Shown: piece after piece, positions 36,486 through 60,291 of the stretch
Layout of the letters: every line of letters begins with the position of its first letter
How positions within the stretch are numbered: the first letter of the stretch is position 1
From: Bacteroidetes bacterium GWF2_33_16
GTDB lineage: Bacteria; Bacteroidota; Bacteroidia; Bacteroidales; UBA12077
Reading direction: 5' to 3'
Length of the DNA stretch: 64,000 nucleotides
NCBI GenBank assembly: GCA_001768565.1
Contig: MEOE01000007.1
Coordinates: forward strand, 62,001-126,000
The notes under the pieces: model-generated
What the model was told of the DNA's origin: nothing
The model's input: only the letters and a program-made list of their open reading frames with translations
Database searches by the model: none
Translations under genes and position numbers: made by a program

Positions 36486-39335
36486 ATGAGGACCTTTTTA
36501 AAAATTGAATTGCTTTTATCCTTCCTCTTTTCCTCATTATTTCTTTATAGTGGAAATGGCAAGCCTTTAATTATAAACTATACAAAAGAAATTTATGGTG
36601 CAGATAATCAAAACTGGTCACTTTCGAGCGACATAAATGGTATAATGTATATTGCAAATAATAAAGGATTATTAGAATTTGATGGTTCTAATTGGCTTTT
36701 AAATAAAATGCCAGAAGGAGAAGGTATTCGGTCAGTACTTGTTGAAAATCCAACCAGAGTTTATATTGGAGCATATGAAGAATTTGGGTATTGGGAGAAA
36801 AATGAAAAAGGTGAAAAAAGATATGTGTCGCTAAGTAAATCAATACCTAAGGTTAATATACATAATGATGAAATATGGAGGATTGATTCATTAAATGGGA
36901 ATATTTATTTCCAGTCTTTTTCAACAATATTTAAATATGATGGGCATGAAATAAGTATTATTAATCCTGAGTCTTCAATTGTTTTGTTATTAAAAGCAAG
37001 AGCCCGATTGTTTATTCACCTTATTGGGAAGGGTTTGCATGAGTTAATAAATGATAAATTAGTTTTATTGACAGGAAGTGAGTTTTTAGCGAATGATGAG
37101 GTCAAGTTTGTTCTTCCTTACAAGGGAAATGAGTTCCTAATAGGTACCAGTGAAAACGGGATTTTGATATACAATAACCAAGGTTTTTCAAAATGGGATG
37201 TACCTATAGCAAATCTAATTATCGATTCAAAAATAAATAATGGAATTTTTCTTAATAAAAACTATGTTATAGGAACAATAACAAATGGGATTTTTATAAT
37301 TGATGAAAATGGAGAACTAAAGCACCATTTTAATACTTCTAATTTCCTGCAGAATAATACGGTTTTAGCCTTGTATGCAAACAAATACGGAAACTTATGG
37401 GTTGCATTAGATAGAGGTATTGATTATATCGATTTTAATGGCCAATTGGATTTTTATGTTGATCCTTTTTACACTATAGGGTCAGTGTATACCGGAGTAT
37501 TGGACGAAAAAAACCTCTGGATAGGAACAAATAAAGGATTATACAAGTATTCAATTAATAAAACAGATAATACATTTGCTGATCCAGAATTGATTGACGG
37601 TACCCAAGGACAGGTTTGGAGCTTAGATATTATAGATAATCAGCTTATTTGTGGTCATACAAGTGGTACATTTTCTATAAAAGAAGGTAGTGTTTTAAGA
37701 ATTAGCAGTATTAATGGGGGCTATGATATTAAAAGAATGACTCTCAATAATGAAAACATATTGGTTCAAAGTACATATAGTTCATTGGTTATATACAAGA
37801 AGAATGGAAAAAATAACGAATGGGAATTTTCCAATATTGTTGGTGGATTTATAGAACCTATTCCAAATATAGAAATCGACCATCTTGGGAATATATGGGC
37901 CTCGCATCTCAAAAGAGGTATTTTTAAAATACAATTAAATAACACCTTAGATTCTATAAAAAGCATTAAATATTTTAGTAAAAACGAAGGATTTAGCAAT
38001 GAAAAAGAAGTTTTGGTTGGCAAAATAGTTAATAGAATAGTTTTTGTAAATGGAGGATCAATATATACATACGATGATTTAAATGACACGATTCTTCTAT
38101 ATGATCTGGTAAATAGTCAACTTAGAGAAAAAAATGAAATAAAGAAACTAATAGAAGCAAAAGAAAATCAATTTTGGATTATTGAAGATCAATGCCTTTC
38201 GTTGCATAAGAAAGAGAATGAAACTATTGATCAGATATTTAGCTATGATCTATCACGGCAAGGATTATATTTTCCAAGTGATTATCAACAAATTGTCCCT
38301 TTGGAAAACAGGACTCATTTAATATGTCTTGATAATGGTTTTGCCATTTACAATCAATCCAAAGATATAGATTCAGTTTCTTTTCCGAAACTTACAATGA
38401 GGAACGTTACAATATCTAAATCAAATGGAGATTCAAAACAACTTTATCTAAGTGCAACAGATGAAAAAAATGCATTCCCATTTTATTACAGGAATATTCA
38501 ATTTACTTTTTCAAGTTCTGAATTAACAGTTAAACCCGTATATCGATTTATTTTGAAAGGTCTTTATAATGATTATAGCTCTTGGGCTAATGAATCTGTT
38601 GTGGATTATAAAAGATTGCCTTACGGTAAATATGAGTTTATTGTTCAATCAAAAACTATTGAAGGGCAATTGCTGCAACCATTAGTTTATTCATTTGAAA
38701 TTTTACCTCCCTTTTATGCAACCAAATTGGCATTTGTTTTTTATGGTTTGTCTTTCGCAGGTCTAATTGTGTTGAGTTTTATAATATTTAAAAAACGATT
38801 AGAAAAAATTCGAAAAAGAGAAAGAGAAAAGAGAGAAACAGCAATTTTAAAAGGTAAACAGGAATTTATGGATTTAAAAAATAGAAGTCTGCAAACAGAA
38901 CTTTACTATAAAAATGTTCAATTAGCTAACCATGCACTAGCTATTGGTACAAAAAATGATTTGCTAATTAAATTAAAGAATAATATAAAAAGTCAATTAA
39001 TTCAATCAAACAATAATGTACCAGCAGCATTCCTAATTAAGCAGATAAGCTTGCTTGATCGATATATTTCAGATGAAAATGAATGGAAAACGTTCGAAAA
39101 TTATTTCGATCAGATTCACCAGGGATTCTTTAAACGATTGATTGAGCAATACCCGGATCTTACTCAGGGAGATCTTAAACTATGTGCTTATCTGCGACTT
39201 AACTTATCATCAAAAGAAATATCTCCACTTTTAAATATCTCCTTTCGGGGAGTTGAAGCAAGAAGATATAGGCTTAGAAAACGACTAAATTTTGAACATG
39301 ATAAAAACCTGGTCGAATTTCTTATCAAATTCTAA
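36486..39335 (+). CDS. Membrane-anchored regulator: beta-propeller, Y_Y_Y and helix-turn-helix
   Basis: A 949-residue protein. A signal peptide (about 1-22) is followed by a periplasmic beta-propeller of two-component-regulator type (about 35-670; repeats such as NLWVALDRGIDYI, NLWIGTNKGLYKY, NIWASHLKRGIFK), a Y_Y_Y domain (about 683-745), one membrane helix (about 747-770), a basic coiled coil, and a C-terminal LuxR-like helix-turn-helix (about 891-945; LTQGDLKLCAYLRLNLSSKEISPLLNIS region). There is no kinase or receiver domain. It should sense a glycan product in the periplasm and bind DNA while membrane-bound. It sits immediately upstream of the SusC gene, so it is the likely regulator of the locus. 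Confidence 0.87.
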   Translation: MRTFLKIELLLSFLFSSLFLYSGNGKPLIINYTKEIYGADNQNWSLSSDINGIMYIANNKGLLEFDGSNWLLNKMPEGEGIRSVLVENPTRVYIGAYEEFGYWEKNEKGEKRYVSLSKSIPKVNIHNDEIWRIDSLNGNIYFQSFSTIFKYDGHEISIINPESSIVLLLKARARLFIHLIGKGLHELINDKLVLLTGSEFLANDEVKFVLPYKGNEFLIGTSENGILIYNNQGFSKWDVPIANLIIDSKINNGIFLNKNYVIGTITNGIFIIDENGELKHHFNTSNFLQNNTVLALYANKYGNLWVALDRGIDYIDFNGQLDFYVDPFYTIGSVYTGVLDEKNLWIGTNKGLYKYSINKTDNTFADPELIDGTQGQVWSLDIIDNQLICGHTSGTFSIKEGSVLRISSINGGYDIKRMTLNNENILVQSTYSSLVIYKKNGKNNEWEFSNIVGGFIEPIPNIEIDHLGNIWASHLKRGIFKIQLNNTLDSIKSIKYFSKNEGFSNEKEVLVGKIVNRIVFVNGGSIYTYDDLNDTILLYDLVNSQLREKNEIKKLIEAKENQFWIIEDQCLSLHKKENETIDQIFSYDLSRQGLYFPSDYQQIVPLENRTHLICLDNGFAIYNQSKDIDSVSFPKLTMRNVTISKSNGDSKQLYLSATDEKNAFPFYYRNIQFTFSSSELTVKPVYRFILKGLYNDYSSWANESVVDYKRLPYGKYEFIVQSKTIEGQLLQPLVYSFEILPPFYATKLAFVFYGLSFAGLIVLSFIIFKKRLEKIRKREREKRETAILKGKQEFMDLKNRSLQTELYYKNVQLANHALAIGTKNDLLIKLKNNIKSQLIQSNNNVPAAFLIKQISLLDRYISDENEWKTFENYFDQIHQGFFKRLIEQYPDLTQGDLKLCAYLRLNLSSKEISPLLNISFRGVEARRYRLRKRLNFEHDKNLVEFLIKF

Positions 39336-39348
39336 TTCTTATTATCAA

Positions 39349-39376
39349 AAAAACACAAAGTAATCTCTGTGTTTTT
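39349..39376 (+). terminator. Terminator after the regulator gene
   Basis: AAAAACACA (39349-39357) pairs with TGTGTTTTT (39368-39376), ending in a T run. It separates the regulator transcript from the SusC operon. Confidence 0.7.
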
Positions 39377-39423
39377 AACAACCTGATAATTAGGTGTATA
39401 AAATTTAGTTTTTGCCTTTTGTC

Positions 39424-39650: not shown

Positions 39651-42650
39651 ATGGAATTAAAGATTAAAAAGCTAATTAAATCCACAAAGTTTTTATTACT
39701 TGTATCTCTTCTTTTTGTTTTTAGCAATTCTTTTGCACAAGTAAGATTAATAACCGGAAAGGTAATAGATGCAACTGATAAATCTCCTTTACCTGGAGTT
39801 AATATTATAGTAAAAGGTACTACTATAGGTGTAAGTACTAATATGGATGGAGAATATAGTATTAATACTCCTGGCGATGAAATAATCCTGGTTTTTTCTT
39901 TTGTTGGATACGAGACACAAGAATTCCCTGTTAATAATATTACAAGCCTTGATGTTGAATTGAAAATGCAGGCAACTGCTTTAGACGAATTAGTTATAAT
40001 TGGTTATGGGTCTGTAAAAAAGAGTGATCTTACAGGATCAATAAGTTCTGTAAAAGGCAAGGACTTGACAAAAACTACGTCATCTTCTCTTGAGCAATCG
40101 TTACAGGGAAAAGTAGCGGGACTTCAGGTTTCAAGTCCCTCTGGTGCGCCTGGAAGCTCGCCGGTACTGAGGGTGCGTGGTGTCGGGACGCTTAATAATT
40201 CCTCTCCAATTTTTGTTGTAGATGGACTTATTTTGGATGATATAAGTTTCCTAAATAGTGCTGATATTGAATCAGTACAAGTGCTTAAAGATGCCTCAGC
40301 TACTGCTATTTATGGATCAAGGGGTGCAAATGGAGTTGTTATAATTACATCAAAATCAGGGAAATCTCAAAAAGGAAATATCGTTAATTTTTCATCTGAA
40401 TATGGTTATCAATATTTACAGAAGAAAATTGATCTTCTTGATGGTGTTTCTTTCGCTAAGGTAGTAAATGAAATTAATCCGGGAACATTTAACAATCTTA
40501 ATAAAGTTCCTAATACAGACTGGCAAGATGAGATTTTTAATAAATTCACGCCCATTTCAACCTCCCAATTATCTTTTGCAGGATCTACAGATGAAAAATA
40601 CAGTTATTATTTAGGTATTGGATATTTTGATCAGGAAGGAATAATATCCAAATCATCATACAATAGAACATCCATTAAGCTGAATCACACATATAATCTT
40701 TCTGATAATATAACGATAGGAAACAATCTCTCAATTACTTCTGAGAATAAAGAAAATGCAGCTAACATTATTGCTCAAGCATATAGAGCCTGGCCAAGTT
40801 CTGTTCCAAAAAATGATGATGGTTCATTTGCGGAGGTATATGGTGCAGGAAATCCGTTAGCTTCAATAGAATACAATAATTCCGAAATGAAAAAGTATAG
40901 AGCTGTTGGAAACTTTTTCGGAGAAATTAATTTTCTAAAACATTTTGTTTTTAAATCAAGTTATGGAATTGATATTAGCAATGAAAAAACAAAATCATTT
41001 GTACCTACATTTTATGTTTCGCCTACTCAACAAAATGTTACAAGCGACCTGTCTGTAAATACAAAAGATTTTAATATCTGGTTATGGGAAAACACCTTAA
41101 ATTTTAATTATGATATAAATAAACATTCACTGAATGTTTTAGGTGGTTATACAATGCAAAAAGTGACCGAAGAAAGCCTTGGTGGGGGCGTTGAAAATCT
41201 ATTAGGAGACGATCCATCACTTTGGTATCTTGATACAGGAGAAACAGATTCAGAAACAAATAGTAATTCTGGATCTATTTATTCTATGTTATCTTACTTG
41301 TTTCGAGTGAATTATTCTTACGAGAGCAAATATTTGTTAACTGTTTCTATTCGAGCAGATGGTTCTTCTAAGTTTAGCAAAGAAAATCGATATGGTTACT
41401 TTCCTTCATTTGCTTTGGGATGGAATATTGCAGAGGAGAAATTCTTTCCCAAAGATGGGATTTTTGGAAAAGTAAAATTAAGAGGTAGTTGGGGTAAAAT
41501 AGGAAATGAGAAAATTCCACAAAACGAACGTTTTTCATTAATCGCGAATGGACAAAATGCAGTTTTTGGAACAGATGAATTATTATATCCCGGAGCTTCA
41601 TTAGGGAATACAGCAAATCCAAATCTTCGATGGGAAACAACTACCCAAACAGATATTGGAATAGAAATGGGCTTGTGGAATAACAAATTGATTGCAGAGT
41701 TTGATGTATTTGATAGAAGAACTGAAGATATCCTGGTACAAGTTTCTACACCAGGCTATTTTGGAAATGGAGCATTTGTAAAAATTTATACCAATGCGGC
41801 TGAGGTAAGAAACCAGGGTATTGAATTTAATCTTGGATTAAATAGTAATATAGGACCCATTAGTGCATATTTCAATTTTAATGGTTCATTCATTCGAAAC
41901 GAGGTATTATCATTGGCTTCATCTACAGGAAACGATTCATTCATTATCGGTGGAAGTCTTGGTAATGGTCAAAATGTTACTCGTACTGAGGTAGGAGAAC
42001 CTATTGGTTCATTCTATGGTTATCAGGTTGTTGGGGTAATACAAAATCAGGATGATTTAGATAATTCTGCAATTATTCCGGGACAAACAATAGGCGATTT
42101 AAAATTTAAGGATATTTATAAAGATGGTGTTATAGATGAGCTTGACAGAACATATATTGGGTCTCCTATTCCGGATTTTATTTTTGGATTTAATACTACT
42201 CTAAATTATAAAAAGCTTTCTTTATCAATAGATATTACTGGTCAAACCGGAAACGAAATTTATAACGGTAAGAATGCCGTTAGACCGGATCTTTATAATT
42301 TTGAATCCAGAGTTGAAGACCGATGGTCGGGAGATGGAACTTCAAACAGCGAACCTCGTGCAACTGCGAGTGGTGCTAATTATAGTGTTTCAAGTTACTT
42401 TATTGAAGATGGATCATTTTTAAGAATAAGAAATGTTACTCTTCAGTATTCATTTAAGGCTGATGCATTTAAAAAAATCGGCTTAACTAGCTTAAATGTG
42501 TACCTTAAAGGTACAAACCTATACACATTTTCTAGCTTTTCTGGATATTCACCCGAAATTGGAAGCTCCGATGTTCTTTCATCGGGGATAGATTTAGGAA
42601 TTTATCCGGCTACAGCTATTTTTTCTTTTGGAATTGTGAGTGCATTTTAA
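39651..42650 (+). CDS. SusC/RagA-family TonB-dependent glycan transporter
   Basis: A 999-residue outer-membrane channel. The signal peptide ends at SFAQ, then a CarboxypepD_reg-like domain (about 33-110: ITGKVIDATDKSPLPGVNI), the plug with GYGSVKKSDLTGSIS, VRGVGTLNNSSPIFVVDG and the SusC hallmark IESVQVLKDASATAIYGSRG, and a 22-strand barrel ending in FSFGIVSAF. It lacks an STN domain, so it does not signal to an anti-sigma factor; control falls to the separate regulator upstream. It forms the import pore with the SusD protein encoded 52 bases later and should carry oligosaccharides, here inferred to be beta-1,2-glucan fragments. Confidence 0.96.
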   Translation: MELKIKKLIKSTKFLLLVSLLFVFSNSFAQVRLITGKVIDATDKSPLPGVNIIVKGTTIGVSTNMDGEYSINTPGDEIILVFSFVGYETQEFPVNNITSLDVELKMQATALDELVIIGYGSVKKSDLTGSISSVKGKDLTKTTSSSLEQSLQGKVAGLQVSSPSGAPGSSPVLRVRGVGTLNNSSPIFVVDGLILDDISFLNSADIESVQVLKDASATAIYGSRGANGVVIITSKSGKSQKGNIVNFSSEYGYQYLQKKIDLLDGVSFAKVVNEINPGTFNNLNKVPNTDWQDEIFNKFTPISTSQLSFAGSTDEKYSYYLGIGYFDQEGIISKSSYNRTSIKLNHTYNLSDNITIGNNLSITSENKENAANIIAQAYRAWPSSVPKNDDGSFAEVYGAGNPLASIEYNNSEMKKYRAVGNFFGEINFLKHFVFKSSYGIDISNEKTKSFVPTFYVSPTQQNVTSDLSVNTKDFNIWLWENTLNFNYDINKHSLNVLGGYTMQKVTEESLGGGVENLLGDDPSLWYLDTGETDSETNSNSGSIYSMLSYLFRVNYSYESKYLLTVSIRADGSSKFSKENRYGYFPSFALGWNIAEEKFFPKDGIFGKVKLRGSWGKIGNEKIPQNERFSLIANGQNAVFGTDELLYPGASLGNTANPNLRWETTTQTDIGIEMGLWNNKLIAEFDVFDRRTEDILVQVSTPGYFGNGAFVKIYTNAAEVRNQGIEFNLGLNSNIGPISAYFNFNGSFIRNEVLSLASSTGNDSFIIGGSLGNGQNVTRTEVGEPIGSFYGYQVVGVIQNQDDLDNSAIIPGQTIGDLKFKDIYKDGVIDELDRTYIGSPIPDFIFGFNTTLNYKKLSLSIDITGQTGNEIYNGKNAVRPDLYNFESRVEDRWSGDGTSNSEPRATASGANYSVSSYFIEDGSFLRIRNVTLQYSFKADAFKKIGLTSLNVYLKGTNLYTFSSFSGYSPEIGSSDVLSSGIDLGIYPATAIFSFGIVSAF

Positions 42651-42702
42651 AACCGGAATTAAAGGTTGAACATAAAACAGATCATTAAAAAAACACCAGA
42701 AT

Positions 42703-44199
42703 ATGGAAACTAAGCAGAAAAGAATTGGCTATAGAAAATTGAGGTTATCTTTTTTCCTGATTTTTATTTTAATGTTTGGTTGTACTCAAGATTTTCTTGA
42801 TGTAAAACCACAAGGAAGTCTAACCGAAGTTCTTTTTTTAACCAATGCAGATGATGCACTAATGGCAACAAATGCAATTTACAGTTCGATGCGCGAATGG
42901 AATTTCTCTACAGGAGGATACCCCATATTAGATATCATGTCAGATGATGCTGTTAAGGGAAGTAATCCAGGAGATGGTGCAGGTTTAAATCTTTTCGATA
43001 ATTTTCAATTTACACCATCTGTAGGTGATATCGATCGATGGTATTCTGCTCTTTACAAGTCGATTCGAAGAACAAATATAGTTATTGAAAAAGTACCCGG
43101 CATAAGTATGGACGATATTTTAAAAAGCAGGTATATTGCCGAAGCCAGATTCTTCAGAGCCCTATATTATTTCCAATTGGTAAAAGCATTTGGGGATGTT
43201 ATTAAAGTAACTTCATTGAATCCTCCAAGTGACTTAAAAAGAACCAGTAAAGATGAAATTTATGAAGATTTAATTATTCCAGATTTACTATATGCAATTG
43301 AAAACTTGCCAGAGAAGGATGCTTACGCTTCGAAAGATGTGGGCCGGGCAACAAAGGGAGCTGCCTATACAGTGCTGGCTGATGTTTATCTTTTTAATAA
43401 TGATTTTATCAATGCAGAATTATATGCTTTAGAAGTAATTCAATCACTAAAATATGATCTTGAAACAGACTTTTCAACTGTTTTTTCTCTAGAGGGAGAA
43501 CATGGAATAGAATCAGTATTGGAAATTGGTGCATTACCCGAGGAAAATCCAACATTGGGAGGCAATCAGTTTGCAAATACTCAGGGAGTTAGAGGTGTTC
43601 CTAACCGTGGATGGGGGTTTAACAGGCCTTCTATTGATCTAATAAATTCTTTTGAAACCAATGATTCTAGAAAAGATGCAACAATCATTTTTTTAGGAGA
43701 AGTGCTGGATGGTATTACCATTCTTGGAGATGTATCTACACCAGATACAACATTTACAGATGCATCCAATACTGTGGTTAAAGAAATTGAAACCTACAAC
43801 CAAAAAGTTTGGGTCCCCGGATCAACAACTGTTGAAGAGTGGGGCTATAATTTACGAGTATATCGTTATGCAGAAGTTTTACTTATTGCCGCAGAAGCAT
43901 TAAACGAAAATGGAAAAACAGCCCCAGCTTTAACATATTTGAATTTAGTCAGAGATAGAGCTGGTTTAGAAGACTTTGAAAACACTGATAAAAATTTAAT
44001 TAGGGAACAAATCTGGAAGGATCGCCGATCCGAGCTAGCCATGGAAAGCAAGCGATTCTTTGATCTGGTTCGACAAGAACGTGCAAGCGAAGTATTGGGT
44101 GATTTGGGCTTTATAGCCAATAAGCACAACCTTCTGCCAATACCTCAAAACGAAATCGATCTTTCAAAAGGCTTATTAAGTCAAAATCCAAATTGGTAA
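42703..44199 (+). CDS. SusD/RagB-family surface glycan-binding lipoprotein
   Basis: A 498-residue lipoprotein. The lipobox ends in FGC (Cys 27) and is followed by TQDFLDVKPQGSLTE, the classic start of SusD proteins. The tetratricopeptide-like helical scaffold is recognisable in RYIAEARFFRALYYFQLVKAFGDV, GAAYTVLADVYLF and the C-terminal IWKDRRSELAMESKRFFDLVRQ. It forms the lid of the SusC channel and binds the incoming glycan. It is translated from the same transcript as SusC. Confidence 0.95.
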   Translation: METKQKRIGYRKLRLSFFLIFILMFGCTQDFLDVKPQGSLTEVLFLTNADDALMATNAIYSSMREWNFSTGGYPILDIMSDDAVKGSNPGDGAGLNLFDNFQFTPSVGDIDRWYSALYKSIRRTNIVIEKVPGISMDDILKSRYIAEARFFRALYYFQLVKAFGDVIKVTSLNPPSDLKRTSKDEIYEDLIIPDLLYAIENLPEKDAYASKDVGRATKGAAYTVLADVYLFNNDFINAELYALEVIQSLKYDLETDFSTVFSLEGEHGIESVLEIGALPEENPTLGGNQFANTQGVRGVPNRGWGFNRPSIDLINSFETNDSRKDATIIFLGEVLDGITILGDVSTPDTTFTDASNTVVKEIETYNQKVWVPGSTTVEEWGYNLRVYRYAEVLLIAAEALNENGKTAPALTYLNLVRDRAGLEDFENTDKNLIREQIWKDRRSELAMESKRFFDLVRQERASEVLGDLGFIANKHNLLPIPQNEIDLSKGLLSQNPNW

Positions 44200-44251: not shown

Positions 44252-45496
44252 ATGAAAAAAATTAGTCGTATTATTTTTATGTTATTAATCATTTTCGTAC
44301 CATTTACGGGATGTGATGATGATGAAGAGGATATTAAGGATTTGACTCTTGTGTCTCTAACATGTGGGAATGTGGACCTTTATGGTGCAACATCAGCCAC
44401 AGATGTTCCTGTTGATCAAACCATTGTAGCAGTATTTTCAACAAATATTGATGAAGCAACAGTTGCAACTGCAGTTAGTATTTTGAAAGGAGAAACTGAT
44501 GTGCCTTTTACAACCGTTGTTGATGGTAAAACATTAACAATTACAGTAACGGGTGGTTTAATTACTGGTACTCGTTATACAGTTAATATAAGTGCTGGGT
44601 TGGAATCTACTCAGGGAGCTGTTTTAGGAGCAATTTCTGCTTCCTTTACTACAATTGGTATTGGAATCGATACACCTCCAAAAGCAAGTAATCAGGTGCT
44701 TTATTTGCAATTTAACAATAGTATTGTTGATGTTATTGGTAGTCACACGAATCCTTTTACACAAGTTGCTTATACAACCGATCGTTTTGGAACAGCAAAT
44801 GGTGCTGCCAATTTCAGAGGTGCAACTGCCGCAGGAAATGGTGATTTAGTAGAAATTGCTGGTAGTAATCTTATAAATCCAAGTATGACTTTTAGCGTTT
44901 GGTTTAAAGTTAATTCTGCTGATTATGCCAATGGAGGTCACCCAATGTTTGGTCTTGCTACCGAAAGAGGATACTTTATGGAACTTGGCGGAACCTTAGC
45001 ATGGTGTAAATTTGCAACATCTCATAAAATTGATCCCGATCCAAATAGCCATTACTTCGGAACTGCATGGACAGATCCTAACGGTGATGGAAATGTTGGA
45101 GGTCAAACATTGTATGATTATGCTGGAAGTCTTGCAACAATTATGGGAGATAAATGGACATTATTAACAATGACATTCGATGCTGCTACTTCAATTAAAA
45201 CAATCTATTTTGATGGAGTAAAAATTATGCAGGTTGATCTTGATCTTGATGCAACTGAATGGTATCTGGCAGATATGGAAATAGCTGATCAAGCTGATGG
45301 AACAGGTGCTGCAATAACCGGTATTGAGGAAGTATTAGCATTGGGATATATGTGTAGCAGAGGCAATACTGCAACAGGTTGGAGTATTTATTCGACTGCA
45401 GATAATACATTTAAAGGTGCACTCGATGATCTTCGAATATTTAATGTAGCTCTTACTGAGAGTGAAGTGTTAGCTTTATATAACTCAGAAAATTAA
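44252..45496 (+). CDS. Surface glycan-binding lipoprotein (Ig-like and LamG/concanavalin domains)
   Basis: A 414-residue lipoprotein. Cys 21 is followed by DDDEED, a strong acidic export signal to the cell surface. An Ig-like (Big_5) domain spans about 30-130, and a LamG/concanavalin-like beta-sandwich about 147-410 (LYLQFNNSIVDVIG, FRGATAAGNGD, MTFSVWFKV, GALDDLRIFNVALTESEVLALY). No catalytic residues are evident. Its place right after SusD and before the enzymes fits a surface glycan-binding protein. The Ig-like domain resembles that of the following GH144 protein (both begin L-LVSL--G), so the two may share a spacer module. Confidence 0.83.
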   Translation: MKKISRIIFMLLIIFVPFTGCDDDEEDIKDLTLVSLTCGNVDLYGATSATDVPVDQTIVAVFSTNIDEATVATAVSILKGETDVPFTTVVDGKTLTITVTGGLITGTRYTVNISAGLESTQGAVLGAISASFTTIGIGIDTPPKASNQVLYLQFNNSIVDVIGSHTNPFTQVAYTTDRFGTANGAANFRGATAAGNGDLVEIAGSNLINPSMTFSVWFKVNSADYANGGHPMFGLATERGYFMELGGTLAWCKFATSHKIDPDPNSHYFGTAWTDPNGDGNVGGQTLYDYAGSLATIMGDKWTLLTMTFDAATSIKTIYFDGVKIMQVDLDLDATEWYLADMEIADQADGTGAAITGIEEVLALGYMCSRGNTATGWSIYSTADNTFKGALDDLRIFNVALTESEVLALYNSEN

Positions 45497-52200: not shown

Positions 52201-52405
52201 ATACACTGTAAATAAGGATAACAATAAGTATACATTGTCAATATCAGGAGATGTAACCTTGCCTTCGAACGGAATCAAAGTGAAAAATTTCAATGGATCA
52301 AAACTCCCTGTAAGAGTTATGGTAAATGGTATCGAAACCAATGATTTTAGTGAAAAGGAAATATCTGTAAAAGCATTTCCCGCTGAAGTAATTATATCTT
52401 ACTAA
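49220..52405 (+). CDS. Periplasmic discoidin/six-hairpin glycosidase-like protein, family uncertain
   Basis: A 1061-residue exported protein. Its signal peptide (VVAFAQ) has no lipobox, so it is probably soluble in the periplasm. Residues about 25-180 are a carbohydrate-binding-like beta-sandwich (LLDDFENKEGWDF), about 190-312 an F5/8 type C (discoidin) domain, about 320-600 a beta-sandwich linker, and about 610-1000 an (alpha/alpha)6 barrel with ERSWIRDGAL (634-643), SYWDDFF and HTWVGSDF. ERSWIRDG resembles the glucoamylase/glycogen-debranching superfamily, but I cannot place it in a named GH family. In context it should trim or debranch imported oligosaccharides. The symporter gene starts 14 bases after it. 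Confidence 0.7.
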   Translation: MNRLFLKIILLFTFLFHINVVAFAQAILLDDFENKEGWDFIKSDGVNLKLSNEKGLTGNAIRFDYDFTKGTGYGGFQKLFPIDLPDNYEFTFFIKAESPANNFEIKFIDSTGNNVWWVNNRNFDFPGEWKKIRIKKRHINFAWGPTNNQKLNRIDRIEFTIASFVGGNGTVWIDDLRFEPLLPEAQTYPKPTAEASSSVKNHLETTITDDLLETYWQSGKTKNQHIVIDFNIRREFGGLQINWQKDFYATKFDILLSNDKKNWEKVYSVQSNQSNVSFIQLPEAEAKYIKINLHEAKSLKGFGICEIQILDIKNSLTPNDFLIYAAKNSPQGDYPRYFLEQASYWTIAGVNNDVKEAMISEDGIVEVDKALFSIEPLIKIEDSIFNWSNVKSYQSLGNSEDKNEFNFIPNVSWKMRDLLLVTEVTAYGEANKNSKLNISYSFENISDEAKDFEFYLLIRPFQVNPYYQFLNLSGGVGKIKSIKEEEGGFLSVDDKVILPQKKYDFFGASAFDEGNSVDLIRKGKMPLNKSATDQNGLANGVIKYALHLNPGERTKLYMVVPFYNSNSNFDSIGAQDIEDELTKSADFWRSKVNHIKFNLPESADRIVNTYKSNLVYILINRDKAGIQPGSRSYERSWIRDGALTSSALLKSGIVSEVKDFIDWYSSYQYENGKVPCVVDSRGTDPVPENDSHGQLIYLIREYFNFTHDTTFLKSKNSSVLKAVEYIESLIAQRSTDYYRNGNDSLRSFFGLVPESISHEGYSAKPMHSYWDDFFTLKGLKDAAEIQKILGETANYGRIRSISDTFRVNLYRSLQLTMKNKNIDYIPGCAELGDFDPTSTTIALTPCNELNNIPKPQVYNTFDLYYEFFKNRRDGKNEWINYTPYENRLIGSFIMLDQPERAHELIDFFLNDQRPKGWNHWAEVVWNGYRTPGYIGDMPHTWVGSDFINAIRSMFVYENEFDQSLVLGSALYQDWIDSPGGISVENLPTYYGEISYTVNKDNNKYTLSISGDVTLPSNGIKVKNFNGSKLPVRVMVNGIETNDFSEKEISVKAFPAEVIISY

Positions 52406-52418: not shown

Positions 52419-54518
52419 ATGGATAATAGCACAAACAATTCCACAAAAACAGAAGATCGTATTTCCTTTACCCAATTGGCAGCATATGGGACAGGTGGTA
52501 TTATTCCTATCGCCCTGTTCAATGTTGCAGGAATTCTGGTTGGCTTAATGGGAAATATTAGTTTGGGACTTAGTGCATTTTGGCTCGGCGTAATTCTTAT
52601 TATTCCTCGGTTGTGGGATGCTATATCTGATCCTATCATTGGCCATTTATCTGATAATACCCGAACTCGCTGGGGGCGAAGAAGACCGTACCTTTTGGTG
52701 GGTGGCATTTTGGTTGCTATTACTTTTGTAATAATGTGGTGGATACCTAAAGGAGAAATGGTACAAACATGGTTTCCAACAGAATCAAGCTATCATGCAT
52801 TTCAGCTTGGCTATATTCTTATTACACTTCTGTTGTTTTTTACTGCTGTAAATATTTTCGAGATTCCTCATGGTGCGCTTGGTATGGAAATGACTACCGA
52901 TTCGCATACTCGTACTCGATTGTTCAGCGCTAAAAGCTTTGTCGGCAATTTATTTGCAATGAGCACACCTTGGCTTTTTGCTATCGCTACAATGGAAATA
53001 TTTAAAGGCCCCGGAGGTAATGAAGCCGACGGTATGCGCTATGTCTCAATAATGATTGCAGCTATTCTTATTCCGCTTTCTTTCTGGTGGTTTTTCAAGC
53101 TGCGCGAGCCGGGCTTCCAAAAAGCTGCAAAGCAGGAGAAAACAGATTTCTGGAAAGATATGGGGCTGGTGATCTCAAATAAAAACTTTGTTATGTTAAC
53201 GCTAACGGTTTTTACCTTAGCTATGGGTTTTAATTTTGTGCAACTTCTCGGTTCTTATATTCCAATTTTTTATGTTTATGGCGGAGATAAAGTTGCAGGT
53301 GCTACTTTACTCGGAATAAATGGAACAATTTGGGCCATCACTGGAGTATTAGCTGTTTTTCCTCTCAATTGGATTAGTCCTAAACTTGGAAAGCGCAATA
53401 CGCTTGTTATTGCAATGGTTCTTATGATTCTTGCCCAGCTCTCCAAGATTGTTTGTTATAATCCTAATCATCCATATTTAATTGTGATTCCCACTATTCT
53501 GCTATCGACCGGAATGTTGTTTTTCTTTACACTCGGTTCGTCAATGGTGGGTGATATTTGCGATGAAGACGAACTAAACACAGGAAAACGCTCCGAAGGA
53601 AGTTATTATGCAATTTTCTGGTGGTTTATAAAAATGGGAACTGCACTTGCCAGCTTTGTAGCAGGTGTGCTTATTGTATTTACTATGTTTGATGAAGCAC
53701 AAGTAACTAAAGTGGATAGTTTACAGGGTAATATAAGAGAGCTTCGAAGCAAGGTGCAACTATGGAAAGGGAGTGAGGGCTTTGAGGGTTCAAATGCTGT
53801 ATTACTTGAAAATACAAAAAAACAGTGTAAAGATGCTTTAGATGAATCGAAAACATATGTAAGCATTCTCGAAAAAGAATCAGTAAAACAGGAAAGTGAA
53901 GCAAATCAGAATGTCGCAGATTACCAAAGTGATAGGAAGATAAAACTTTTAAATGCCTTGGCAATTACAAAATCAACAGTTATCGAACTTGAAAATATTC
54001 AATCACGTCTGGAAAATTTAGGCTCTCACCCAGATGATTCAGTGATTATAAATATATCTAAAGAAGCTGTAGCACCCACATTGCAAACTAAACTGGAGAA
54101 AGCGAAGATGAACTCATTTGAGCTCATTTCGCATCTTGAATCCAAATCTTTAGTGCCCAAATCTATTAAAAAAGAAGAAACGGATGAGCATTATGCTATA
54201 ATCATGAAAGGGATCACAATTGTTAAAGATCGACTTATTAGCATTAAAACAACTTCTTCACTAGATTCACTAGATAAAAATCTTGGTGCTATTGAAACTG
54301 AAATTATGCCTCTTACAAAGCAAACGCCATATACTCTGTTAATGATGCGTGTGGTCGAAATTGGATTGCCATTTTTATTGAGTTTGCTTTCTATATTTTT
54401 TGTCTTACGTTATTCTCTAACAGAAAAACGATCCCATGAAATCAAATTGCTGCTTAAGCTAAGAAATCAAGATGGTTTAGACAAAGAGAATGGTACTAAA
54501 GAAACATCTAACGATTAA
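52419..54518 (+). CDS. GPH-family sugar:cation symporter with periplasmic coiled-coil insert
   Basis: A 699-residue inner-membrane protein. The 12-helix core matches the glycoside-pentoside-hexuronide:cation symporters (PRLWDAISDPIIGHLSDNTRT, RRRPYLLVGG, GDICDEDELNTGKRSEGSYYA). Unlike ordinary members (about 450-500 residues) it has about 210 extra residues (about 425-637) between helices 11 and 12, highly charged and coiled-coil-like (LRSKVQLWKG, LEKESVKQESEANQ). By the usual topology this loop is periplasmic. It probably moves oligosaccharides made by the periplasmic enzymes into the cytoplasm, where the next two gene products act. The genes are spaced by 14 and 17 bases. Confidence 0.87.
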   Translation: MDNSTNNSTKTEDRISFTQLAAYGTGGIIPIALFNVAGILVGLMGNISLGLSAFWLGVILIIPRLWDAISDPIIGHLSDNTRTRWGRRRPYLLVGGILVAITFVIMWWIPKGEMVQTWFPTESSYHAFQLGYILITLLLFFTAVNIFEIPHGALGMEMTTDSHTRTRLFSAKSFVGNLFAMSTPWLFAIATMEIFKGPGGNEADGMRYVSIMIAAILIPLSFWWFFKLREPGFQKAAKQEKTDFWKDMGLVISNKNFVMLTLTVFTLAMGFNFVQLLGSYIPIFYVYGGDKVAGATLLGINGTIWAITGVLAVFPLNWISPKLGKRNTLVIAMVLMILAQLSKIVCYNPNHPYLIVIPTILLSTGMLFFFTLGSSMVGDICDEDELNTGKRSEGSYYAIFWWFIKMGTALASFVAGVLIVFTMFDEAQVTKVDSLQGNIRELRSKVQLWKGSEGFEGSNAVLLENTKKQCKDALDESKTYVSILEKESVKQESEANQNVADYQSDRKIKLLNALAITKSTVIELENIQSRLENLGSHPDDSVIINISKEAVAPTLQTKLEKAKMNSFELISHLESKSLVPKSIKKEETDEHYAIIMKGITIVKDRLISIKTTSSLDSLDKNLGAIETEIMPLTKQTPYTLLMMRVVEIGLPFLLSLLSIFFVLRYSLTEKRSHEIKLLLKLRNQDGLDKENGTKETSND

Positions 54519-54535
54519 ATCAAAAAATAAGTAAA

Positions 54536-56971
54536 ATGATATTTAGTATAAAAGATGACAGTTTTTACCTCGACGACAGAAAAATATTTCTCAATTCTGG
54601 AGAGATTCATTATTTCAGAATTAAGCACGAGCTGTGGGATAAACATTTAGAAGAAGCCAAAGAGGCTGGCTTAACTACTGTTAGTACATATGTTCCATGG
54701 GCATGGCACGAATACAAAGAGAAAACATTTGATTTTGATGGTACATCATGTCCTGAACGAGATATAATAGGTTGGCTCCAGAAATGCAAATCTCATGGAT
54801 TAAATTGTATCGTAAAACCAGGTCCCTTTATTTTGGCAGAGTTTCGTGGTGCAGGATTGCCGGACTGGTTTATGGAGAAATATGGGATTGAGGTTAAAAT
54901 GAGAAACAGCAAAGGCTCAATATTTCCAAGCGATGGAGTTAGTCTTTTTAATAAGACCTATCTTGAAAAAGTTACTTTGTGGTATGACAAGATAATGCCT
55001 TTGATAAGCGACCATCAAATATCAGCAGGTGGACCAATCATTATGATGCAAGTATGTAATGAGATAGGCGTATTTTCCTGGTTGGCTCACCAGGGCGATT
55101 ATTGCGATGAGGTGAAAAAACGATTCATTGCTTACCTATCAAAAAAGTTTAAAAATATTGCTGATGTTAATAGTTTATGGGGAACAGATTATAAAGATTT
55201 TGCAAATGTAGAACTGCCTCCTGATGGTAAATTTCCTTATGCATCGAAAAGCGATCGTGGTCGTAATTACGAATGGCACTCTTTCTGGCGAACCTACTAT
55301 GGCGACTATCTAAAAATGTTAGCCCTAATGGCAAGAGACAGAGGCGTAAGTGTACCGTTTTATCACAATCTGCCAGGCTGGATATATGGAAATGGGTACG
55401 AATTTCCGGTTAATATTACTATGTACGAAGATTTATTTGGTGATAATAGCGAAATCATTTTTGGGGTAGATCATATCCCGGAGTTTCTTTCGTACCGAAA
55501 TATGCACGATGACCGCATTATAAATGATATAACCTATGCAATGCAAGGGCAAAAACCTCTTTTCGCAGCCGAGTTTCAGTGTGGTTCACGCGAGTACCAT
55601 GTTGTCACAAATCCCCGGGAAATGGAACTCTTCTATAAGGCAAGCATTGCAAATGGACTAACAGGCTGGAACTATTATATGTTTTCGCAGGGACGAAACC
55701 CCAGACATAAAGGCTATTCCGGAGAAACGTTTTACTGGTTCAATCCACTCACTCCTGAGGGTGAAAGAACAAGTGCTTTTCCTCTCGTAAAACGAATGAG
55801 TAAGGTTTTAAAAATTTCCGAAAATATAATCGTTAATGCAAAACGAAAAGCGGATGTGTGTGTGCTTTTCTATCCTCCTTATTATGCCACAGAGTTAGAA
55901 AGGCCAGTTGATGAAAGATGTGAACTCCAATTCAACGTTTCAGCAATACGTAGACCAGCTTATTTCGATGGATTGCTTAAAGTACTTCAAGTTCTCGATA
56001 TCGATTATGATATGGTGGATTTGAATAAAGCAACTGCTGATAAACTGGCTAAATACAAACAAGTTTGGGCCTTTTGCACCGATGAGATGAATGCGAGGGA
56101 ACAGCAAACAATTGTTGATTATTCAAGGGTTGGTGGGAATGTAGTTATTTTCCCTTATCTCCCGGATCGTGAGATGTCGCAGAAACCATGCACTATCATT
56201 CGCGATGCATTATCAATTATCCCATCAGGAATAGAAAACGTTGATTCCCCATTGATAGATATATATGATTTTAAAGATATCAAATGTGCTAATCCACAGG
56301 TAATCTATAACGAAGAATCACTTGCCGGAGCAGAGATTATCGCTAGAAACATTCATGGAAACATTTGCGGTTTTACAAAACCCTTAGGAAAAGGTACAAT
56401 TATTCATATAGGCACTTGGATTGGATTTGACACAGAGGGACAAAAACCCGTTTATGAAACAATTTTAGGAAAATCTGGCGCAAAACTCAGACAGGCAACT
56501 TCTAACAATTATCATATAAATGTCAGGGAGCGATTCACAAATAACCATTCTGCTATTTTATTTATTGGAAATTATTACAATGAGGAACAGGTGGGTAGCG
56601 TAACTTACACTCATCCTAGAAGTGCTGAATCTATTGAAATTCCTTACACTCAAAAAGAAATGCTATGGCCTCCATTATATGCAGCTTTAGTTCCTGTTGG
56701 CTTAAAAATTTCTGAGGATTTAAGTGTACTGCATTGTACCTCAGACATTCTTAATGTTGAGGTTAACGACAAACAAATCCTAATTACACTTTATGGAGAT
56801 AGAGATTTGTATGGTGAGTTGGTTTTGGAAGGTGCGGGAATCAAGAATATCAGTCAGGCTGAAATGAATGGGGATACTCTTGATTTAGTTCCTGAGAATA
56901 AACGCTTAGCAATTATTTATAGTCATAAGCATAAGGAAGAAATGGTTCTTAACATCACAATAAATAAATGA
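54536..56971 (+). CDS. GH35-family glycosidase or beta-1,2-glucosyltransferase, cytoplasmic
   Basis: An 811-residue protein with no signal peptide. The N-terminal barrel is GH35-like: SGEIHYFRIKHELWDKHL, STYVPWAWHE, VKPGPFILAEFRGAGLPDW. The acid/base is Glu 176 in MQVCNEIG (most relatives read ENE; here Cys 174 replaces the first Glu) and the nucleophile is probably Glu 346 in FAAEFQCGS. A Rossmann-like middle domain (about 435-600) and beta domains follow. GH35 is best known for beta-galactosidases, but a GH35 enzyme of Ignavibacterium album is a glucosyltransferase on beta-1,2-glucosides. With GH144 and GH94 neighbours, that role fits better. Its stop overlaps the GH94 start (ATGA). Confidence 0.82.
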   Translation: MIFSIKDDSFYLDDRKIFLNSGEIHYFRIKHELWDKHLEEAKEAGLTTVSTYVPWAWHEYKEKTFDFDGTSCPERDIIGWLQKCKSHGLNCIVKPGPFILAEFRGAGLPDWFMEKYGIEVKMRNSKGSIFPSDGVSLFNKTYLEKVTLWYDKIMPLISDHQISAGGPIIMMQVCNEIGVFSWLAHQGDYCDEVKKRFIAYLSKKFKNIADVNSLWGTDYKDFANVELPPDGKFPYASKSDRGRNYEWHSFWRTYYGDYLKMLALMARDRGVSVPFYHNLPGWIYGNGYEFPVNITMYEDLFGDNSEIIFGVDHIPEFLSYRNMHDDRIINDITYAMQGQKPLFAAEFQCGSREYHVVTNPREMELFYKASIANGLTGWNYYMFSQGRNPRHKGYSGETFYWFNPLTPEGERTSAFPLVKRMSKVLKISENIIVNAKRKADVCVLFYPPYYATELERPVDERCELQFNVSAIRRPAYFDGLLKVLQVLDIDYDMVDLNKATADKLAKYKQVWAFCTDEMNAREQQTIVDYSRVGGNVVIFPYLPDREMSQKPCTIIRDALSIIPSGIENVDSPLIDIYDFKDIKCANPQVIYNEESLAGAEIIARNIHGNICGFTKPLGKGTIIHIGTWIGFDTEGQKPVYETILGKSGAKLRQATSNNYHINVRERFTNNHSAILFIGNYYNEEQVGSVTYTHPRSAESIEIPYTQKEMLWPPLYAALVPVGLKISEDLSVLHCTSDILNVEVNDKQILITLYGDRDLYGELVLEGAGIKNISQAEMNGDTLDLVPENKRLAIIYSHKHKEEMVLNITINK

Positions 56972-59900
56972 AGATCAACAGCCCAACAGGACTTTCTATT
57001 AGTCTGCTAAACAATGGTTCAATAAAATCAATTGAGGTCGATCCAATCAGAATTAGCCTCCAGGCAGCAACTCCGTATTCAAAGTTGGGTGCAAATATTT
57101 ACGTAAGGAAAAGAACAAATCCTCCTGAATTTAAAGCATTGGTTGGTCCTGAAAGTAACAGCCAATTTGAGATTTGTGGAGACACCATTATTGCGAAAGG
57201 GAGTTGGAACGGACTAAGCTACAAATGTACTTTGCAACTTTCAAACACAAGTTTGAGCTGGCAATGGCAGATTGATATTAAAAATGTAACCGATTCAGAC
57301 CTCGGGTTAGATCTAATTTATTTACAGGATATCGGTTTAAAGCCAGCTGTTGAGAATTCAATCAATGAGTATTACGTTGCCCAATATATAGAGCGATTAA
57401 TTCTTGAGGATGAGAAGTATGGTTCGGTTATTTGTTGTCGCCAGAATATGAAAGGACCAACGGGAAACCCTTGGGTGATGTTAGCTTGCAAAAACGCTGC
57501 ATCTTCTGCTAGTACAGACGGAATGCAGTTCTATGGAAAATCATATAAAGTAGCAGGAGTTCCGGAAGGTTTGGTTGGCGATTTGCTTGGTGGTGAATAT
57601 GCCGGAGAGTCTCCAATAGTTGCATTGCAGGAAAAACCCTTTGCGCTTGCTCCAAATGGTAATCATTCATCAACCTTTGTTGGATGTTATCTTCCGGATC
57701 ATCCTGAAGCAACTTCAGATAAAGATCTAAGCAAACTATCTAAACTATTTATTGAATTTGATGGAAGCAAAACATTTCAATCAAAAGGTAAAACATTTAT
57801 CCCTCAAAAAAATATCTTTAACACATCTCCCTTATTGCCCGTTGAGGATTTGAGCATAAAGGAATTGAAACAATTCTTTGGAGAGAATTGGCGACATCAG
57901 GAGGAAGATAATGGAAAACTTATTTCATTCTTTTACAACCAAAACAGCCATGTTGTTTTACGATCAAAAGTTAAACTGGTCGATCGTCCTCATGGTCATA
58001 TCATGCAAGCAAAAGCAGGTTATATTCCAGATGAAAATATTGTTTCAACTACTTCCTATGCCTATGGCGTTTTTAACTCACATTTAACTCAGGGAAATAC
58101 CAATTTTAATATTTTTCTTTCAGTATCGTCTAGCCAGTTTAATCTTAGTACAGAAACGGGTCAACGAATATTTGTTGAAATTGATGGACAAAAATACCTT
58201 CTGGGAGTTCCATCTGCCTTTGAAATGGGATTAAACTATTGCCGTTGGATTTATAAGCAGGGTGATTTTTGTTTGCAGGTTCGCACATGGACATCAAAAA
58301 CTGCCCCACAAGTAAATTTAGATATTAAATTAATTAGTGGTTCCAACGTTAAACTGCTCATCACACATCATTTTGACGAGAATAATGGATGGACACTCAG
58401 TCAGGGCAATTCCCCAAAGGAATTTATAGCCAAACCTAAATCTGAGAGTTTAATTACAAGCAAATTCCCCAATGCACAATTTAAGATTTTGGTTCAAGAG
58501 TCTGATTCAGATTTTACTGTGTATAATGATGACTCAAATAACAACAGATTATTCATCATTGATGTTCAGGAAACATCTTATTTCTGTATGAGTTTTCTGG
58601 GTGAAGTTTGCAATACTACTCAAGCGGTTTCAATTGTAAATTCAGATATTCAGTGGCAATCAGATTGTAGGGATGCACAATCTGTTTGGCAGGATTTAAG
58701 TTTAAACTTATCCATAAAAGGAGATCAGAAAGATTTAGCTGCAATTCGGGAAATATTACCATGGTTTGGCATGAATGCACTTACTCATTATTTAACTCCT
58801 TACGGATTAGAGCAATTCAGCGGAGCAGCATGGGGTACACGCGATGTTTCTCAAGGTCCTATCGACTTACTTTTAAATTTAAATAAGTACGATGAAGCTA
58901 GAAAAGTGCTACTCATTATTTTCTCTAATCAGAATCCCGATGGTGGATGGCCTCAATGGTGGATGTTCGATAGTTACGCAAATATCAGGGCACACGAAGC
59001 ACATGGCGATATCTTTTACTGGTGTATTATTGCTCTTAGCAACTATATCAAAGTTACCGACGACCTGAAAATTCTTGACGAGGTTCTTCCTTACTATTCA
59101 GAAGATGGTAAAAACAGGATTGAAAAAACAACACTTAGTGAACATGTTGATCGGTTAATCAACATGATAATTGATTCATTTATTAAAGGTACTTCTCTCG
59201 TTCCTTTTGGTGGTGGAGACTGGAATGATTCCTTACAACCAGTAAGTAGTGAGCTGGCACAACAAATGATCTCCAGTTGGACAGTTGAAATGAATTACCA
59301 GGCTTTTTCACAATATCAGGCAGTTTATGAGATGCTTGGAAAGACGGGGCAGGCAGAGAAATTAAAAAATAGTTGTGAGAGAATTAGAAATGACTTTAAT
59401 AAATTCCTGGTGAAGGATGGAATTGTTGCCGGATATGGTTTAGTTGAAAAAGATGGCAGTATGAGCGTATTGCTCCATCCAACGGATAAATTAACTGGAA
59501 TTCATTATAGCATTTTGCCAATGAACCGAGGCATTATTAGTGGGATTTTCACAAAGGAACAAGCACAGTACCATCAACTTTTAATTGAGCAACATCTTAA
59601 AGGTCCCGATGGTGCAAGATTAATGGATCGTCCGCTAAAATACAAAGGAGGAATTCAAACAATATTTCAGAGAGCGGAAAGCAGTACCTTCTTTGGTCGC
59701 GAGATTGGTTTAATGTATGTGCATGAGCATATTCGTTATGCCGAATCACTTGCCATTATGGGGAAAGCGGAGGCTTTCGTAAAAGCTCTTCGACAGGCAA
59801 TTCCGGTAGGCTACAGAGATATTGTACCAAGTGGATATATTCGCCAATCAAATTGTTACTATAGCAGTTCCGATGTTGCATTTAAAAGTCGATACGATGC

Positions 59901-60291
59901 AGATGAACGCTATGATGAAATTAATTCAGGAAAAATAACTCTTAGAGGTGGTTGGCGAGTTTATTCAAGTGGCCCTGGTATTTATATTGGGCTGATAATT
60001 TCCAGAATGCTCGGCCTGCGAATTGAATTTGGGAAAGTTATTATTGATCCAGTAATGCCCCTTTCGTTTGATGATATGTCGGTAAATATAGATTTTATGG
60101 GTTATCCTGTTAATCTAACCTATAAAGTAAAAGAAAACGGATTTAGCCCTAAATCGATAGTAATTAACGGGAAAAAGATTTCATTTGATTACGAAGATAA
60201 TGTTTATCGTAAAGGCGGAGCAGTTATTCTAAAAGAACAATTTTTAGCCATGATGAATAAAAAAGAAAATAGGGTAGAGATTCAATTATAG
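56968..60291 (+). CDS. GH94 phosphorylase, putative 1,2-beta-oligoglucan phosphorylase
   Basis: A 1107-residue cytoplasmic enzyme (no signal peptide). An N-terminal super-beta-sandwich region to about 570 leads to the (alpha/alpha)6 barrel with GAAWGTRDVSQGP, NPDGGWPQWWM, the catalytic-acid motif GGGDWNDSL (Asp 751, Asn 753, Asp 754), and SSSDVAFKSRYDA near the end. GH94 enzymes cleave beta-glucosides with inorganic phosphate. Cellobiose phosphorylases are about 800 residues; the length near 1100 fits 1,2-beta-oligoglucan phosphorylases. Products would be glucose 1-phosphate and a shortened glucan, which saves ATP. It is the last gene of the locus. Confidence 0.87.
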   Translation: MKINSPTGLSISLLNNGSIKSIEVDPIRISLQAATPYSKLGANIYVRKRTNPPEFKALVGPESNSQFEICGDTIIAKGSWNGLSYKCTLQLSNTSLSWQWQIDIKNVTDSDLGLDLIYLQDIGLKPAVENSINEYYVAQYIERLILEDEKYGSVICCRQNMKGPTGNPWVMLACKNAASSASTDGMQFYGKSYKVAGVPEGLVGDLLGGEYAGESPIVALQEKPFALAPNGNHSSTFVGCYLPDHPEATSDKDLSKLSKLFIEFDGSKTFQSKGKTFIPQKNIFNTSPLLPVEDLSIKELKQFFGENWRHQEEDNGKLISFFYNQNSHVVLRSKVKLVDRPHGHIMQAKAGYIPDENIVSTTSYAYGVFNSHLTQGNTNFNIFLSVSSSQFNLSTETGQRIFVEIDGQKYLLGVPSAFEMGLNYCRWIYKQGDFCLQVRTWTSKTAPQVNLDIKLISGSNVKLLITHHFDENNGWTLSQGNSPKEFIAKPKSESLITSKFPNAQFKILVQESDSDFTVYNDDSNNNRLFIIDVQETSYFCMSFLGEVCNTTQAVSIVNSDIQWQSDCRDAQSVWQDLSLNLSIKGDQKDLAAIREILPWFGMNALTHYLTPYGLEQFSGAAWGTRDVSQGPIDLLLNLNKYDEARKVLLIIFSNQNPDGGWPQWWMFDSYANIRAHEAHGDIFYWCIIALSNYIKVTDDLKILDEVLPYYSEDGKNRIEKTTLSEHVDRLINMIIDSFIKGTSLVPFGGGDWNDSLQPVSSELAQQMISSWTVEMNYQAFSQYQAVYEMLGKTGQAEKLKNSCERIRNDFNKFLVKDGIVAGYGLVEKDGSMSVLLHPTDKLTGIHYSILPMNRGIISGIFTKEQAQYHQLLIEQHLKGPDGARLMDRPLKYKGGIQTIFQRAESSTFFGREIGLMYVHEHIRYAESLAIMGKAEAFVKALRQAIPVGYRDIVPSGYIRQSNCYYSSSDVAFKSRYDADERYDEINSGKITLRGGWRVYSSGPGIYIGLIISRMLGLRIEFGKVIIDPVMPLSFDDMSVNIDFMGYPVNLTYKVKENGFSPKSIVINGKKISFDYEDNVYRKGGAVILKEQFLAMMNKKENRVEIQL

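Follow-up and report, generated by a model that had tools for sequence, protein, structure and literature searches.

A putative beta-1,2-glucan utilisation locus with a fixed catabolic core and a distantly GH15-like protein in Bacteroidetes bacterium GWF2_33_16

The locus analysed here lies at positions 36486-60291 of a 64,000-nucleotide stretch of DNA from Bacteroidetes bacterium GWF2_33_16 (contig MEOE01000007.1), which is referred to as the window. It consists of ten open reading frames (ORFs) on the same strand, whose exact ends were confirmed and all of which were found to be real and correctly identified (Table 1). They code for a membrane-bound regulator, a SusC/SusD pair, a LamG lipoprotein, two proteins of glycoside hydrolase (GH) family 144 (GH144a and GH144b), an uncharacterised protein designated GH15L, a symporter of the GPH type, a GH35 enzyme and a GH94 enzyme of the SOGP type. 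For four of the enzymes, the nearest relatives of known activity act on beta-1,2-glucosides (PMC8861115, PMC12102758), and we consider it likely, with a probability of about 0.82, that the locus serves the utilisation of bacterial beta-1,2-glucans, i.e. osmoregulated periplasmic glucans (OPGs) and cyclic glucans, by means of a surface module and a fixed catabolic core. Gene identities, catalytic residues, gene order and conservation are read from the sequence itself.

Genes and enzymes of the locus

An earlier note on this DNA had listed two GH144 proteins, GH35, GH94, SusC/D, a surface lipoprotein and a symporter, all of which were recovered with Pfam and NCBIfam. Both GH144 proteins reach 245-247 bits with PF10091 (cut-off 27), and their genes are the sole two GH144 genes in the 4.33 Mb of genome scanned. 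The top PDB match of GH144a is 4gl3 (E = 8e-169), deposited as a putative glucoamylase, and CpSGL (5gzk) is matched with E = 5e-149. GH144b matches XcSGL, which is XCC2207 of Xanthomonas campestris (8xul, E = 1.6e-104), and CpSGL with just 1e-43. CpSGL and XcSGL are biochemically shown GH144 endo-beta-1,2-glucanases, with E211 and E239, respectively, as the general-acid glutamate and E142 as an acidic site of CpSGL (PMC12102758). According to the alignment, GH144a keeps the general acid E439 as well as E369, while GH144b has E224 at the general-acid position and D151 at the position of CpSGL E142. The 8xul chain carries a glutamine opposite E224, presumably the mutation E239Q, which fits the statement that XcSGL was crystallised as a mutant (PMC12102758). 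Families GH192-194 were considered for GH144b, since they were created in the paper on XCC2207; the same paper places XcSGL in GH144.

In the PDB search, the GH35 protein was nearest to IaSGT with 506 bits. It keeps Y52, E102, N175, E176, N278, E346 and Y381, corresponding to Y52, E102, N175, E176, N275, E343 and Y378 of IaSGT, which are conserved among IaSGT homologues, and also L100 and R352 (IaSGT R349), positions that vary among these homologues (PMC8861115). With this match and with the catalytic and subsite -1 residues kept, the earlier view of this protein as a beta-1,2-glucoside enzyme stands at sequence level. Assignment as a beta-galactosidase or an exo-beta-D-glucosaminidase was rejected, as other enzymes scored at most 226 bits and NF041127 gave 235 bits compared to a cut-off of 1500. 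The GH35 protein has no relative elsewhere in the genome.

The GH94 protein aligns to LpSOGP (PDB 5h3z) with 607 bits over residues 43-1096 (ca. 1050 residues), whereas other entries reach at most 43 bits. Its GDWND motif at 750-754 is what we take to be the catalytic motif of GH94. A role as cellobiose phosphorylase was rejected, with E values of about 3e-7 or weaker compared to 5e-181 for LpSOGP. Hence, neither of the two placements that the earlier note had named as speaking against its view was found: the GH94 protein, with its three SOGP domains, does not group with cellobiose phosphorylases, and the GH144-like proteins belong to GH144 by their PF10091 scores and their proximity to CpSGL and XcSGL. 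Signal peptides are absent from the N-termini of both GH35 and GH94. SOGP_N occurred in one of the 296 sampled genomes of the phylum, which is the present one. Another genome of this genus shows its SOGP gene as two open frames (G305:C171:1359-4461, in loci L127 and L129), which suggests a frameshift or an assembly fault.

The symporter contains a soluble, helical-looking insertion of about 200 residues between the hydrophobic segments 402-430 and 639-669, located before the last transmembrane segment. Its homologues in related loci are mostly 670-699 residues long, compared to ca. 440-480 for the MelB/GPH models.

The SusC/SusD pair adjoins glycan enzymes and a regulator, as is the case in SusCD polysaccharide-utilisation loci. 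Lipobox types, judged by eye, agree with the earlier description. The motif of SusD reads FGCTQ; those of the LamG lipoprotein (TGCDDDEED) and of GH144a (LSCSEDDE) are acidic and of the surface-export type, and that of GH144b (YSCNQPQQ) is not acidic. Many relatives of GH144b have a plain signal peptide in place of a lipobox. In many related loci, a homologue of the LamG lipoprotein is located between SusD and GH144a.

As stated in the earlier note, the locus has its own membrane-bound regulator, which features a signal peptide or transmembrane segment at 3-23, a transmembrane segment at 745-770 and a C-terminal LuxR-type helix-turn-helix (HTH), the latter being weak (GerE, E = 0.019). A domain search for histidine-kinase, receiver and AraC domains returned none of them, and a hybrid two-component system was therefore ruled out. 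The regulator gene is markedly AT-rich (G + C fraction 0.297 compared to 0.35-0.38 in the enzyme genes) and is followed by a gap of 315 bp. Gaps in the enzyme block range from -4 to 126 bp. The strict form of the Bacteroidetes -33/-7 promoter motif was not found before the genes of the locus. The flanks are formed by housekeeping genes, with dusB upstream and nadB downstream. Behind the SOGP gene, the AT-rich intergenic DNA at window positions 60600-60625 recurs at two other places in the genome as near-identical copies of 26 bp.

Table 1 Features of the locus (window coordinates)
Feature	Position	Strand	Basis of the assignment
Membrane-bound one-component regulator	36486..39335	+	signal peptide, Reg_prop beta-propeller, Y_Y_Y, transmembrane segment 745-770, LuxR-type HTH
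SusC-type TonB-dependent transporter	39651..42650	+	TIGR04056 842 bits, TIGR04057
SusD-type lipoprotein	42703..44199	+	PF07980, PF14322
Surface glycan-binding lipoprotein candidate	44252..45496	+	Big_5 + LamG, acidic lipobox context
GH144a, endo-beta-1,2-glucanase candidate, surface lipoprotein with Big_5 spacer	45680..47659	+	PF10091 246.6 bits
GH144b, XcSGL-type endo-beta-1,2-glucanase candidate	47786..49168	+	non-acidic lipobox (probably periplasm-facing)
GH15L, uncharacterised 1061-aa secreted protein	49220..52405	+	jelly-roll domain resembling a carbohydrate-binding module (CBM), F5/8-type C domain, supersandwich, (alpha/alpha)6 barrel
GPH-type sugar:cation symporter	52419..54518	+	PF13347 226 bits; TIGR00792 168 bits (below cut-off 231); transmembrane segments
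GH35 beta-1,2-glucosyltransferase candidate (IaSGT-like), cytoplasmic	54536..56971	+	7vkw E = 1.4e-150
GH94, SOGP type	56968..60291	+	SOGP_N, SOGP_2nd, SOGP_4th over cut-off; 5h3z E = 5e-181

GH15L and its gene neighbourhood

The earlier note had called the locus complete. Its named enzymes are as described, but the pathway is incomplete without GH15L, which ranks among the two longest proteins encoded here and was absent from the reasoning of that note. Residues 28-166 are similar to the endoglucanase H jelly roll of the CBM11 type (E = 0.015), and residues 193-303 to an F5/8-type C domain. Pfam at E ≤ 10 gave just two weak and irrelevant matches for the catalytic half (from ca. 311). An AlphaFold2 model computed with 68 relatives (pLDDT 89.1, pTM 0.87) shows two N-terminal beta domains, followed by a supersandwich and an (alpha/alpha)6 barrel. 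The last two elements are shared with GH15 glucodextranase (1ug9), a bacterial glucoamylase (1lf6) and the homologous dextran dextrinase (9ju0), to which GH15L aligns with Z scores of 20.9-21.8 and a root-mean-square deviation of 3.5-3.9 Å over 540-553 residues. GH15L differs from these structures in its two extra N-terminal binding-type domains and shares 12-13% identity with them, and its scores are below every curated cut-off.

In GH15, the glucose in subsite -1 is held by a Trp-x-Arg-Asp motif (W540, R542 and D543 of dextran dextrinase), and the acid and the base are located in the alpha5-alpha6 and alpha11-alpha12 loops, respectively (PMC12446779). GH15L has the motif Y633-x3-W637-x-R639-D640 (x being isoleucine in the protein of the window), which is invariant in the alignments. 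Invariant glutamates are also present in both loops, with E754 and E759 in loop 747-768 and E922 in loop 912-941 (helix numbering is our own, taken from the model), so that the W-x-R-D motif and a Glu in each catalytic loop are common to GH15 structures and GH15L. A plain signal peptide was found on GH15L in the relatives inspected. Judging from the model, the carboxylate at the base position together with export would argue for a hydrolase rather than a phosphorylase, although the mechanism of GH15 enzymes is not readable from sequence alone (PMC12446779). We regard GH15L as a probable exo-acting enzyme of the periplasm, alpha-glucosidase-like and distantly resembling GH15, with inversion as its probable mode of action.

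Among 54 relatives, the GH15-type NCBIfam models TIGR01577 and archaeal trehalase TreH1 matched 53 and 51, respectively, all far below cut-off; weak Pfam matches comprised PF00723 in seven relatives and the GH78-type PF17389 in 15. Comparison of GH15L with hhalign to the SOGP of the window, to GH144b and to one Methylosinus GH15 protein yielded no significant match, the latter aligning over the W-x-R-D stretch alone. The superfamily is wider than GH15L, with distant relatives (26-27% identity over the barrel) that have no N-terminal binding-type domains (L021:1297-3831 and L022:1243-3627). The first of these adjoins a glycosyltransferase-like gene.

GH15L is closely associated with genes for beta-1,2-glucan enzymes. 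The scan of the 296 phylum genomes yielded 20 with a match, 18 of them strong including the present genome, and in each of the 17 others GH144 was found in the stretch (≤ 20 kb) around GH15L. GH144 thus occurs in 18/18 strong genomes compared to 105/296 overall (hypergeometric P = 2.9e-9, with genomes that are non-independent by phylogeny). When two GH15L peptides, and no other query, were run against 84,980 species genomes, at least 580 relatives were recovered, 80 of which were kept. GH144 lies within 10 kb in 72 of these; in the remaining eight, the available sequence ends less than 1.6 kb upstream of GH15L, on the side where GH144b usually sits. Where there was room, GH144b immediately preceded GH15L in 58 of 66 loci and GPH-GH35-SOGP followed directly downstream in 33 of 50. 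The complete five-gene core, with the fixed order GH144-GH15L-GPH-GH35-SOGP, was recovered in 34 fetched loci, which come from many families of Bacteroidota and mostly keep this order. Hosts of GH15L loci comprise Bacteroidales, Chitinophagaceae, Flavobacteriaceae, Saprospiraceae, Ignavibacteria, Calditrichota and KSB1. SOGP and GH15L occur in exactly the same three of 59 near relatives and, within the genus, in only two of the 20 genomes sampled, from which we conclude that the core is accessory and probably mobile.

GH15L was also found on annotated plasmids outside Bacteroidota. On a Croceibacterium plasmid it lies directly downstream of GH144, with GH3 and TonB receptors nearby, and on a Xanthomonas sacchari plasmid ca. 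4 kb downstream of GH144, with ABC transporter genes in between. The Methylosinus plasmid pMSC49c (L133:7639-14097) carries a divergently oriented SOGP homologue next to GH15L, which is annotated as hypothetical and aligns at 36% identity along its entire length; it lies beside a GH15-family protein and without GH144; an adjoining cyclic-glucan exporter was not supported. Neither GH144 nor SOGP lies beside GH15L on a Methylocystis plasmid. Through GH144 and SOGP, as two independent partners, GH15L is thus linked to beta-1,2-glucan. The X. sacchari homologue (L130:10831-14283) is unannotated and interrupted by frame changes in that record.

Comparison of distance matrices for the 34 complete-core loci and the window showed that GH15L distances correlate with those of SOGP (r = 0.92), GH35 (0.90), GPH (0.86) and GH144b (0.84), compared to 0.42 for SusC and 0.39 for SusD. 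Core genes correlate among themselves with r = 0.69-0.96 and with SusC/SusD with 0.27-0.51; values are 0.98 for SusC-SusD and 0.81 for GH144a-SusC. The third-position G + C fraction is partly in line with this, being 0.18-0.25 in SusC-SusD-LamG, 0.28 in GH144a and 0.29-0.31 in the core. Based on the tight correlation within the core and its loose correlation with SusC/SusD, we conclude that the surface module is exchangeable, whereas the catabolic core is inherited as a unit.

Proposed pathway and alternative readings

The substrate, the compartments and the flow through the pathway are what we infer, the compartments from the N-termini. The surface module (SusC, SusD, the LamG lipoprotein and GH144a) would bind the glucan, cut it and import the pieces. 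In the periplasm, GH144b would shorten the chains and GH15L would remove a bond that GH144 cannot cut. The GPH symporter would take up beta-1,2-gluco-oligosaccharides, of which SOGP would phosphorolyse those with at least three units to glucose 1-phosphate and sophorose in the cytoplasm. The GH35 transglycosylase would move sophorose onto other glucosides and thereby permit its re-entry into phosphorolysis. Consumption of sophorose by GH35 where a beta-glucosidase is absent has already been proposed for Ignavibacterium album (PMC8861115). The earlier note had taken the route to be phosphorolytic rather than hydrolytic; this holds for the locus, in which no GH3 gene was found, but not necessarily for the cell, with three GH3 genes elsewhere in the genome.

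Several observations weigh against this reading. The three GH3 enzymes could hydrolyse sophorose. The GH15 matches of GH15L lie far under the cut-offs (neither PF00723 nor a curated GH15 model exceeded its cut-off with the protein of the window; TIGR01577 gave 32.7 of 820.7 bits), and a profile of 54 members matched nothing at E ≤ 1 among PDB sequences. The nearest solved folds, GH95, GH78, GH65, GH94, GH15 and GH116, are bunched at 8-14% identity, and GH94, GH95, GH78 and GH65 score about as high as GH15 or higher. Since these structures lie so close together, the fold alone does not pick the family of GH15L, and membership in GH94, GH65, GH78 or GH95 was considered without a basis for choosing among them. 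GH15 enzymes are exo-acting and attack non-reducing ends; ring opening by a GH15-like enzyme would thus need a prior cut by GH144.

Besides the beta-1,2 bonds, which GH144 enzymes cut, natural beta-1,2-glucans contain a single alpha-1,6 closure in Ralstonia, Xanthomonas and Cereibacter, or beta-1,6 branches in E. coli and Pseudomonas (PMC11842490). That GH15L represents a new GH family which breaks the non-beta-1,2 bond of these glucans, notably the alpha-1,6 closure, is a doubtful proposal at present. Because GH15 includes alpha-1,6-specific enzymes, namely glucodextranase and isomaltose glucohydrolase (PMC12446779), the closure is the first candidate, and we tentatively put forward that GH15L may hydrolyse this single bond with inversion. 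Makers of alpha-1,6-cyclised glucans such as X. campestris, Ralstonia and Cereibacter are known (PMC11842490, PMC11228985), and the GH15L-like sequence of X. sacchari lies near GH144, although this copy is frame-disrupted in the record. It also speaks against the proposal that the bond is internal until GH144 opens the ring.

As second candidate, GH15L might act on linear OPGs of the E. coli/Pseudomonas type, at their beta-1,6-glucosyl branches (or their beta-1,2 ends) rather than at an alpha bond, and the locus would then serve branched linear glucans. Such branches would be left by endo-beta-1,2-glucanases (PMC11842490), and the beta-active families GH94 and GH116 are among the (alpha/alpha)6 folds nearest to GH15L. 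We regard this as rather unlikely, as the sequence-level relatives of GH15L are GH15 alpha-glucosidase and trehalase models and the spacing of its W-x-R-D motif is GH15-like, unlike the W-G-T-R-D of SOGP. The remaining probability falls to other linkages or ends.

It is very improbable that the locus mainly serves plant sophorosides or other glucosides. IaSGT accepts a wide range of aryl and alkyl glucosides (PMC8861115) and sophorosides occur in plants (PMC11842490), but a polymer is indicated by the presence of SusCD, of a surface binding protein and of two GH144 homologues of the endo-acting type. A chance assembly of unrelated carbohydrate genes is refuted by the order of the core in the 34 loci and by the correlated divergence of its genes.

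Relation to known systems and significance

Clusters of GH144, GH35 and GH94 are already known from I. album (IALB_1177-1187; PMC8861115). Like the present locus, that cluster contains two GH144, a GH94 and a GH35 beta-1,2-glucosyltransferase and, as discussed in that paper, no beta-glucosidase. It relies on import by an ATP-binding cassette (ABC) system, whereas SusCD and a GPH symporter are found here. For the GH94 of I. album, homology to the C-terminal domain of cyclic glucan synthase is reported, and GH15 is unmentioned in the text (PMC8861115). Loci of the Ignavibacteria (IaSGT) type, such as L070, L105 and L118, carry GH15L directly upstream of GH35 (nine loci, median gap 53 bp), and on this analogy cultured I. 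album probably has GH15L as well. The Listeria innocua cluster Lin1839-1841 shares SOGP as sophoro-oligosaccharide phosphorylase but features an ABC binding protein and a GH3 beta-glucosidase; GH144, GH35 and GH15L are not named there (PMC12369401). The GH144/GH3 (BT_3567) cluster of Bacteroides thetaiotaomicron, as cited in PMC8861115 and PMC12369401, likewise belongs to Bacteroidota and contains an endo-beta-1,2-glucanase homologue, but, unlike the present locus, ends with a hydrolytic GH3 step. In the searched literature, which included few subscription papers and no preprints, we found no SusCD-type locus with such a phosphorolytic core, no GH15-like protein linked to beta-1,2-glucan clusters and no enzyme degrading the alpha-1,6 closure.

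Many Proteobacteria produce beta-1,2-glucans, which act as osmoprotectants and play a part in the interaction with plants and animals, but little is known of which bacteria recycle them and by what route. For environmental Bacteroidota, the locus delimits a set of five core genes for phosphorolytic recycling of these glucans, which is accessory and probably mobile. GH15L draws attention to an overlooked family of enzymes, for which the gene neighbours fix the likely class of substrate. If it cuts the alpha-1,6 bond, GH15L would be a useful analytical tool and would supply the missing step in the degradation of a glucan that X. campestris needs for infection.

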